Notes under the pieces: generated by a model | Database searches by the model: none | The model's input: only the letters and a program-made list of their open reading frames with translations | What the model was told of the DNA's origin: nothing | Assembly: GCA_949285255.1 (NCBI GenBank) | Contig: CASDXV010000001.1 | Span: forward strand, 1 to 64,000 | Length of the DNA stretch: 64,000 bases | Source of the DNA: an uncultured bacterium | Lineage (GTDB): Bacteria; Cyanobacteriota; Vampirovibrionia; Gastranaerophilales; Gastranaerophilaceae | Direction of reading: 5' to 3' | Part shown: one piece after another, positions 7,150 through 55,937 of the stretch | Layout: every line of letters starts with the position of its first letter | Numbering within the stretch: the first letter of the stretch is position 1 | Translations under genes and position numbers: made by a program

Positions 7150-8238
7150 CTAAGGCTCTTGAGGAACTAAAATTTCATATCCTCTTTCTTTTAGAACTTT
7201 TGCTTTTTTAGCAAGCTTCATATCCTCTTCAACCATTTCATAAACCATGGTTTTAAGGTCATATTTAGGCTGCCAGCCGAGTTTTTGGCGTGCTTTTGTG
7301 CTATCACCCAACAGGAAATCAACCTCAGCAGGCCTAAAGTACCTCGGGTCAACTTCGATTAAAACTTTACCTGTTTTTGAATCAATACCTTTTTCATCAA
7401 GACCCTTGCCCTGCCAGATTAAATCAATACCGAGCTCTTTAAATGTCATGTTGCAAAAATCACGAATTGAAGTGGTTACGCCCGTTGCAAGTACAAAATC
7501 CTCGGGCTCATCCTGTTGAAGAACTCTCCACATACCCTCAACGTAGTCTTTTGCATGACCCCAATCGCGCTTAGAGTCAAGGTTTCCAAGGTATAATTTA
7601 TCTTCCATACCAAGCACCATACGAACCGCAGCACGGGTGATTTTCCTTGTAACAAAAGTTTCGCCGCGGCGGGGGCTTTCATGGTTAAATAAAATACCGT
7701 TGCAAGCGTATAAGCCGTAGCTTTCTCTGTAATTTATCGTAATCCAATACGCATACAACTTAGCGCAAGCGTATGGCGAACGGGGATAAAAAGGTGTGGT
7801 TTCTTTTTGAGGTGTTTCCTGAACAAGACCGAAAAGCTCTGAAGTTGATGCTTGGTAGAATTTTGTCTTTTTTTCAAGTCCTAAAATTCTTATTGCCTCA
7901 AGAAGTCTTAAAGTACCTATACCATCGGAGTTAGCAGTATATTCAGGCTCATCAAAAGAAACTTTTACATGAGATTGAGCTGCAAGGTTGTAGATTTCAT
8001 CAGGCTGAATTTCACCTATTAATCTGATAAGATTTGCAGAATCGGTCAAATCACCGTAGTGCAGCTTAAATTTCAAATCGGGATTGTGAATATCCTGATA
8101 AAGGTGGTCAATCCTTGAAGTGTTAAAAGATGAAGCCCTGCGCTTCATACCGTGAACTTCATATCCTTTTTCCAATAAAAGTTCGGCAAGATAACTGCCG
8201 TCTTGTCCTGTAATACCGGTTATAAGCGCTTTTTTCAT
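7150..8238 (-). CDS. gmd: GDP-mannose 4,6-dehydratase
   Basis: Converts GDP-mannose to GDP-4-keto-6-deoxymannose, the branch point to GDP-fucose and GDP-rhamnose for surface glycans. It is an extended SDR: NADP-binding [20 protein letters not shown] at the N-terminus, the RRAS motif, catalytic STSELFG and YACAK (YxxxK), and [11 protein letters not shown] near the end. A longer reading frame to 8334 exists, but ATG 8238 is directly after GGAGAAGG and gives the conserved MKKALITGI start (362 aa). A TATAAT at 8269-8274 (minus strand) gives a ~25-nt leader. The next enzyme of the fucose pathway is not in the window. Confidence 0.96.
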
Positions 8239-30689: not shown

Positions 30690-30706
30690 ACAATCCTCCT
30701 AAATAC

Positions 30707-30754
30707 TTAAAAAAGCGGTCATAGCCGCTTTATTAAATGGTACCCCCAAGGGAA
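30707..30754 (-). repeat. Copy 1 of 48-bp repeat: tRNA-Glu 3' end plus terminator
   Basis: Identical over 48 bp to 30809-30856. It contains the last nucleotides of tRNA-Glu with CCA and the terminator stem AAAGCGG/CCGCTTT with U-run. The two copies start 102 bp apart; here the rest of the tRNA is missing. Confidence 0.85.
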
Positions 30755-30808
30755 CTTTCTGAGCGACCGGCGAAGAAACGTCAGTTTTGACTCCGATTCG
30801 AATTCCAA

Positions 30809-30856
30809 TTAAAAAAGCGGTCATAGCCGCTTTATTAAATGGTACCCCCAAGGGAA
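30809..30856 (-). repeat. Copy 2 of 48-bp repeat, forming the true tRNA-Glu 3' end
   Basis: The intact-tRNA copy of the repeat. The 54-bp stretch between copies (30755-30808) has no gene and carries a 12-bp match to the tRNA T-arm region in inverted orientation (GATTCGAATTCC). Confidence 0.85.
30811..30833 (-). terminator. Terminator of tRNA-Glu
   Basis: The minus-strand hairpin AAAGCGG-CTATGA-CCGCTTT followed by U-run, 7 nt after the CCA end. A second identical hairpin at 30712-30732 lies further downstream. Confidence 0.85.
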
Positions 30857-30915
30857 TTCGAATCCCTGTCTACACCGTGAAAGGGTGTTGTCCTAGGCCT
30901 CTAGACGATGGGGGC
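30840..30915 (-). tRNA. tRNA-Glu (anticodon TTC)
   Basis: Cloverleaf visible: acceptor GCCCCCA/TGGGGGT with discriminator A and encoded CCA, D-arm TCTAGAGGCCTAGGA, anticodon arm ACACC-CTTTCAC-GGTGT, and T-arm GGGATTCGAATTCCC. The G1:U72 wobble and general sequence closely resemble the cyanobacterial tRNA-Glu. The 5' end is 7 nt after the stop of the acidic-protein gene, so the tRNA may be processed from that mRNA. Confidence 0.97.
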
Positions 30916-31640: not shown

Positions 31641-31704
31641 TGCGCAAGCCGTGTGTGAAATCTTGAGCTTTCGTTGAGAAAGCGAAAGATGAAACCGTAC
31701 GATG
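31641..31704. repeat. 64-bp intergenic repeat, copy A
   Basis: Identical to 31752-31815. It contains GCTTTC-GTTGA-GAAAGC and overlapping CTTTCG/CGAAAG hairpins. It is noticeably GC-richer than neighbouring intergenic DNA. No gene is supported in 31535-32047. Confidence 0.85.
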
Positions 31705-31751
31705 GCGACGTAGGATAATCGAGCGCAAAGGCGCGAGATACCCACAGGAGC

Positions 31752-31815
31752 TGCGCAAGCCGTGTGTGAAATCTTGAGCTTTCGTTGAGAAAGCGAAAGA
31801 TGAAACCGTACGATG
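31752..31815. repeat. 64-bp intergenic repeat, copy B
   Basis: Exact second copy. It is followed to 31928 by GC-rich DNA with further small inverted repeats (AAGGC-GAAGA-GCCTT; CCCG-AA-CGGG). Confidence 0.85.
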
Positions 31816-31928
31816 ACGCAAGTCAAGCGAGCTTAGCGTAAGCTTAGCAAGCGAAGACGAGCGCTTGGGTGTGCGAAGCCCGAACGGGAAGGCGAAGAGC
31901 CTTGCCGACAGGGCGTAGCCGTACCAAA

Positions 31929-31952
31929 TGCGCAAGCCGTGTGTGAAATCTT
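31929..31952. repeat. 24-bp partial copy C of the intergenic repeat
   Basis: Carries only the first 24 bp (core GCAAGCCGTGTGTGAAATC). It marks the right-hand border of the GC-rich block, mirroring copy A at the left border. Confidence 0.85.
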
Positions 31953-32047
31953 TTAATACATAAAATAAAAACCCCACATAAACTGCAGGGTCGTGTGTTG
32001 TTGTGCTTCGGGATTGTGTTGTTAGGTGTTGATAATGCTTATCCTCA

Positions 32048-55092: not shown

Positions 55093-55121
55093 AGTATTTG
55101 AATATTTAATTTATGCTAAGC

Positions 55122-55937
55122 TTATGCTAAGCTTGCTTGACTTACGCACTCCATTTCGTCGATTGATGCAAATACGCTTGATGCACCGCAGTCAACAAAT
55201 TGAACTTGTCCGGTTACGCCTGAAGATAAGTCAGAAGCCAAGTATAAACCTGCTTTACCAACGTCCTCCAAAGACGGTGTGCGATTAAGCGGAGCTTTAA
55301 GAGCGTTGAATTTAAGCATTTTGTCAAATCCGCCGATACCTTTTGCTGCAAGTGTTTTAACAGGGCCTGCAGATAAGCAGTTGCAGCGAATGTTAAATTT
55401 GCCCAAATCTGCGGCGATGAATCTCATTGAAGATTCAAGCGCAGCTTTTGCCACACCCATAATGTTGTAGTTTGCAACGGCATGAGTTGAACCTAAATAT
55501 GTAAGGGCTAAAATTGAGCCGCCGCCTGTTTTTTCCATTTGAGGTTTAGCGTATTTTGTAAGAGTTAAAAGAGAATAAGCGCTTACATGCATTGCTAAAT
55601 CCCAACCTTCTCTGCTTGTTGTATAAAAATCGCCTAAAAGGTCTTCTCTGTTTGCAAAAGCAACTGCGTGGATGACAAAGTCAAGTCTGTCATAGATTTT
55701 TTCATATTCTTTAAAAACTTTTTCAACGTCTTCTTCTTTTGTAACGTCGCATTCTATGCACATTTTAGCGTTCATTTCCTCAGCTATCGGTTTTACGCGT
55801 TTTTCCATTGCTTCATTAGCGTATGTAAAAGCAATTTCTCCGCCTGCCGCATAGATTTGTTCAGCTATGGCATTTGCAATCCCGTGTTTGTTTGAAACAC
55901 CGAAGATAATACCCTTTTTGCCATCCATAATACCCAT
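55122..55937 (-). CDS. fabI: Enoyl-[acyl-carrier-protein] reductase FabI
   Basis: Final reduction step of fatty-acid elongation with NAD(P)H. A divergent SDR: GIIFGVSNKHGIANAIAEQ start, catalytic Tyr and Lys in NYNIMGVAKAALE (Y-x6-K), and SAGPVKTLAAKGIGGF. ATG 55937 lies 7 nt after AAGGAG and gives MGIMDGKKG; a longer frame to 55964 is rejected. The stop region has a duplicated GCTTAGCATAA sequence. 271 aa, close to normal. Confidence 0.95.
   Translation of the reverse strand: MGIMDGKKGIIFGVSNKHGIANAIAEQIYAAGGEIAFTYANEAMEKRVKPIAEEMNAKMCIECDVTKEEDVEKVFKEYEKIYDRLDFVIHAVAFANREDLLGDFYTTSREGWDLAMHVSAYSLLTLTKYAKPQMEKTGGGSILALTYLGSTHAVANYNIMGVAKAALESSMRFIAADLGKFNIRCNCLSAGPVKTLAAKGIGGFDKMLKFNALKAPLNRTPSLEDVGKAGLYLASDLSSGVTGQVQFVDCGASSVFASIDEMECVSQASLA

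Follow-up and report, generated by a model that had tools for sequence, protein, structure and literature searches.

Only a few groups of bacteria are known to carry short mobile hairpin repeats, and the mechanism behind them is for the most part unsolved. YPAL (RU-2) of Yersinia is a repeat of about 168 bp that is not A+T-rich, contains internal inverted repeats and lacks TA ends; its target duplications vary from 3 to 26 bp, its targets lie near dyad symmetry, it has no identified mobiliser, and its sites are empty in some related species and filled in others (PMC2229807). The BOX elements of pneumococci are intergenic repeats of composite, modular build, whose tandem modules vary and whose transcripts are predicted to be structured; their boxA and boxC ends, with terminal inverted repeats, have been likened to an insertion sequence (IS) (PMC3049150). 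REP sequences and REPINs, which are associated with RAYT transposases, are short extragenic palindromes arranged in arrays (PMC3116915, PMC2817692). The GC clusters of yeast mitochondria and the RHEs of sponges are GC-rich mobile hairpins in AT-rich genomes; clusters merge and shuffle, and those of yeast, which are organellar, are flanked by direct repeats of 2-3 bp (PMC4478555, PMC2800124).

The locus described here occupies positions 31641-31952 of a window of 64,000 nucleotides, the whole stretch of DNA that was analysed, from a metagenome-assembled genome (MAG) of Candidatus Gastranaerophilales. To judge from comparisons of sequence, it is probably an array of a mobile repeat with long target duplication (probability about 0.65), and the family to which it belongs is best read as new, non-autonomous, mobile structured repeats. 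YPAL is nearest in behaviour, followed by BOX and the mitochondrial GC clusters; the likeness to YPAL is one of description, homology of sequence not being expected across these phyla, and comprises variable target duplication, internal inverted repeats, a composition that is not A+T-rich, the lack of TA ends, a similar length, targets near dyad symmetry, sites empty in some related species and filled in others, and no identified mobiliser. In contrast to YPAL, the duplications consist of 28-56 bp of native sequence, the units combine two hairpin modules that are exchangeable and whose stems are rewritten from copy to copy, they form tandem arrays, and the phylum is another. The composite modular construction of an intergenic repeat with variable tandem modules is shared with BOX, but the array starts with a copy of the first hairpin (H1) and usually ends with a truncated one, its module order differs by inspection from boxA-boxB(n)-boxC, and neither a terminal inverted repeat nor, within the Y1 and IS110 families surveyed, a parent IS came to light. 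The units are several times longer than REPs; the duplications at tRNA-Tyr and fabI are not of the short, fixed kind expected of a MITE; and, unlike the yeast GC clusters, the repeats have long duplications and a bacterial host. No description of such repeats was found in the literature on Gastranaerophilales. The family has many filled and empty sites, duplications of native sequence as long as 56 bp at tRNA genes, and a natural experiment in stem covariation to offer, and it makes the question of mechanism testable.

Architecture of the array

The 312-bp block is intergenic, lying between two genes of this gut bacterium, and has a G+C fraction of 0.535 compared to 0.365 for the window. Its plus strand, folded as RNA, is more stable than 100 of 100 shuffled sequences (z -5.9), as is its minus strand (z -3.4); folded as DNA, the plus strand has z -4.7 relative to shuffles. 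A sequence-only reading of the locus announced a GC-rich composition, abundant hairpins, two exact copies of 64 bp and a third of 24 bp, all of which are real; the two long copies extend to 67 bp with one mismatch. The core GCAAGCCGTGTGTGAAATC, which that reading placed at both outer edges, is found there and also in the middle of the block. Dispersal of the 19-bp core itself was not observed, its three occurrences in the 1.6-Mb genome all being within the block, but the modules are dispersed elsewhere; it is therefore the family of hairpin modules, rather than the core, that is dispersed.

Table 1. Features of the array, and two related features of the window, by window position. H1 and H2, first and second hairpin; G013 and G011, other genomes compared.
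Feature	Position	Strand	Remarks
Unit 1 (111 bp): leader TGCGCAAGCC, H1 and H2, ending in GGAGC	31641..31751	+	H2 model match at 31704-31751; first 64-bp copy at 31641-31704
H1 hairpin with GAA/GAA and GA/GA internal loops and GTTGA loop	31653..31695	+	
H2 hairpin GCGACGTAGGATAATCGAGCGCAAAGGCGCGAGATACCCACAGGAGC, conserved dispersed module	31705..31751	+	Matched by the H2 covariance model
Second exact copy of leader and H1	31752..31815	+	
C module, ending in CCGTACC	31816..31928	+	Nearly identical to the unit that G013 and G011 carry at the fabI 3' end
Third copy of leader and H1, truncated to 24 bp	31929..31952	+	Right edge of the array
Terminator-like hairpin, T-tract touching the array	31970..31991	-	By eye; array-free sites, e.g. 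GTCAAGCAAAATAAAAACCC
fabI 3' end without insert	55111..55154	-	Single copy of the sequence doubled around the G013/G011 insert

Each direct copy is the 5' hairpin of a unit in a tandem series (Table 1); they are not the terminal repeats of one element. At dispersed sites a unit runs from the leader GCGYAAGCC through H1, whose loop is GNNGA, and a linker, often with GATRGCGAC at its end, to H2, which has the signature GCGACGTAGGATAATCGAG..CGAGATACCCACAGGAGC and ends in GGAGC. Units are about 98-186 bp long, and arrays consist of tandem units, usually with a truncated copy of H1 at the right. Modules have been swapped between units, the C module of the window being an example: it carries sequence that in G013 and G011 is the coding tail of fabI. 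Such tandem arrays of a whole number of units plus a fraction are common, as might be expected if GC-rich intergenic DNA had undergone local tandem duplication and slippage without any mobility; however, the same modules are present at unrelated loci and in other genera, insert-free sites exist, and some inserts are located inside native tRNA duplications, so that this explanation, already contradicted by the dispersed copies, is extremely improbable.

Distribution and occupancy of sites

A DNA search with the block matched ten places in its own genome (the block included), and every one of the 15 genomes of the genus gave matches. The covariance model of H2 matched 48 of the 241 genomes of the order; 14 of 50 genera are represented, a genome has as many as 16 matches, and many pairs of matches lie 110-200 bp apart. 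Because all of the genomes surveyed are MAGs whose contigs often end inside arrays, these copy counts are lower bounds; the repeats may in turn account for the frequency with which MAG contigs of this order stop within them. A pattern search for H2 in 84,980 species genomes found 46 loci, and the genomes that bear a name all belong to Candidatus Gastranaerophilales or to its member Galligastranaerophilus, the remainder being MAGs titled uncultured bacterium. A viral origin was rejected on the result of the same search in viral contigs, which was zero matches.

The site occupied in the window is filled in G000, G001, G008 and G013, with differing combinations of modules, and has no insert in nine congeners (e.g. 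GTCAAGCAAAATAAAAACC in G004). Downstream of a terminator that itself lies upstream of fliI is a second site, at which G003, G004, G005, G009, G012 and G014 carry an insert and six others, among them the genome of the window, have none; further sites are likewise filled in some species and empty in others. The dispersal of the modules and their presence or absence at given sites among congeners support the proposal of the sequence-only reading that the block is a mobile or repetitive intergenic element and not a gene. The contrary possibility, of a repeat unique to this locus and lost in close relatives, describes the exact core as far as uniqueness is concerned, but not the modules, which every genome of the genus possesses. 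Proximity to tRNA genes, which that reading had listed among its checks, was found: copies adjoin or sit inside the 5' ends of tRNA genes, and are present at gene ends as well. A preference for T-tracts was considered and is not shown, since of the 116 start positions listed, which include more than one per site and are not independent, 14 are at T-tracts, compared to 9.3% of noncoding positions. At another locus (L040, near position 98000 of contig C11 of G000), 46-bp direct repeats (CCAAAATACTTACACTATTTG...) surround a related hairpin module, and G003 has this site once.

Long target duplications

Clearest is the unit at tRNA-Tyr in G004, which is 121 bp long and is bordered on each side by an exact 56-bp copy of the region upstream of the gene (presumably its promoter) together with approximately the first 15 nucleotides of the tRNA gene, which is complete on the right. 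This unit is missing in three species: G005 and G007 have a single tRNA-Tyr start and a plain tRNA-Thr/tRNA-Tyr spacer without an insert, and G010, also with a single start, has a hairpin insert of another kind at a more upstream position of the spacer. The exact duplication is kept in G004 only; elsewhere among the filled species, divergence or shortening has affected the left copy. The 5' end of tRNA-Arg is duplicated in G217, where the unit and the duplication are themselves tandemly repeated, and the last 28-37 bp of fabI are found on both sides of the inserts of G013 and G011 but only once in G000 and G008. The repetition at fabI and tRNA-Arg of the pattern seen at tRNA-Tyr indicates that insertion duplicates long stretches of the target and thereby restores a tRNA or the end of a gene; the duplications of native sequence at tRNA-Tyr and fabI span 28-56 bp, a variable length. 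The FabI tails of element-free congeners share the residues EC[MV][CS], and at this site an older insertion followed by loss is conceivable.

Not every flanking repeat can be taken for a target duplication, because several contain H1-type sequence. The repeats that flank the arrays of the window, of group c and of L034 are of this kind, and are as likely to be tandem copies or scars of deletion as target duplications.

Element-type sequence provides the last codons and the stop codon of FabI in G001, G002, G004, G010 and G014, and also ends a second gene, which looks like phosphoenolpyruvate carboxykinase (L068, near position 7370), so insertions may alter the C-termini of proteins. Elsewhere in the window (30700-30915), the 3' end of tRNA-Glu and its terminator (about 46 bp) are doubled around an insert of about 55 bp that is unrelated to the hairpin units, in an architecture like that of the hairpin array. 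This tRNA-Glu 3' end is present once in G008, G003 and G010, and in other congeners the insert is a different one, present as a single copy or as several in tandem.

Stem covariation and the mode of insertion

Covariation of structure, which had been put forward as a check on the locus, is found in both hairpins. Thirty distinct H1 hairpins were picked by their GNNGA loop and closing pair, which makes the swapping of arms the informative part of the comparison, and were reduced to 16 that are clearly different. Their own arms pair with a mean of -15.1 kcal/mol compared to -4.1 kcal/mol for swapped arms, and the 5' arm ranks its own partner first in all 16, around a constant GNNGA loop. In H2, CGTAGGATAATCGAG and CGAGATACCCACAGG are nearly invariant around a covarying stem in which 97.5% of cells are paired, compared to at most 51% in slid versions; since this structure was drawn from the same sequences, shuffling is the fairer control, and none of 500 shuffles reached the covariation score. 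Mismatches on the GNNGA strand are G.A in 36 cases and C.T in seven, which indicates that the GNNGA strand is the folded one. G.T and A.C mismatches are equally frequent (six each); this absence of a G-U excess gives no hint of wobble pairing in RNA and leaves a function as RNA hypothetical. Membership in a known structured RNA family was rejected, Rfam scans having returned no match. The repeats could still be regulatory or structured RNAs with a function in the host, dispersed in the manner of a riboswitch or small RNA family and amplified by tandem duplication, which would account for covarying stems, for strand-specific structure, and for an internal-loop sequence of H2 that is invariant across two families of the order. 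Nevertheless, no association with particular genes was seen, matching sites are empty in close relatives, and copies, some of them truncated, occupy the 5' ends of tRNAs and the ends of genes, and these observations, together with the lack of a G-U excess and the Rfam result, make a host RNA improbable.

A mobilising enzyme was sought among genomes that bear the element. Reverse transcriptase (RVT_1, PF00078) is absent from six such congeners (G000, G001, G006, G007, G011 and G013), unlike what a retroelement or SINE-like repeat would require; the Y1 (RAYT) transposase (PF01797) is absent from 14 of 15, with one genome positive, and by this criterion the family is not a REP/RAYT system; IS110 is absent from 14 of 15 congeners; and Cas1 (PF01867), which CRISPR-like or casposon integration would involve, is absent from all 15, whereas control genomes were positive. 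The survey of resident insertion sequences for a parent element covered Y1 and IS110. None of the four enzymes is encoded by G013, which is 99% complete and has a fabI insertion missing in its close relative G000. Each was rejected as the mobiliser on account of its absence from several element-bearing genomes. Terminal inverted repeats were neither detected by a repeat scan of the block nor seen at the unit ends, AA[AT]GCGYAAGCC and GGAGC.

The main rival to copying without an enzyme is a trans-acting integrase or endonuclease that makes staggered cuts 20-60 bp apart, by a target-primed or Cas1-like process, with the units as its non-autonomous substrates. The constant 3' end GGAGC, the near-constant 5' leader at unrelated sites, the long duplications, and the similar architecture of unrelated inserts at the tRNA-Glu 3' end of the window are all consistent with such an enzyme, which is nonetheless judged less likely than not given the pattern of absences just described and the variable length of the duplications, unlike the products of DDE enzymes, whose target duplications do not vary in length.

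An enzyme-free copying step is the favoured mechanism, though taken alone it is tentative and short of even odds. The GNNGA strand would act as a folded single strand; DNA synthesis that has left its template would copy a donor unit, placing the copy in a nick or stalled fork; and resumption of synthesis upstream of the point of departure would produce long, variable duplications. Homologous duplication or deletion between copies of H1 might later alter the length of the array, and insertions would persist on the 3' side of genes or where the duplication rebuilds a gene by restoring the tRNA or the gene end. A doubtful, more general formulation is that folded hairpin units are inserted in Gastranaerophilales by an integration process, whether an enzyme or template-switching DNA synthesis, in which 20-60 bp of the target are duplicated, the end of a tRNA or other gene is often rebuilt, and stems are rewritten with their arms kept complementary.

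Two associations with neighbouring sequences were recorded. In G013, four similar genes (at L068, L101, L094 and L090) each run directly into the same H1-H2 unit, as if gene ends and unit had been duplicated or converted together. Two of these genes, read whole, are glycine-rich and pseudopilin-like by eye, and such pilin-like genes were rejected as a mobile partner, no link having been found. A separate dispersed repeat (GTCATGCTGAACTTGTTTCAGCATCT / CCTGAAACAAGTTCAGGGTGAC) is located beside several arrays, at L275 (approximately 1600-2000), L211, L212 and L187.
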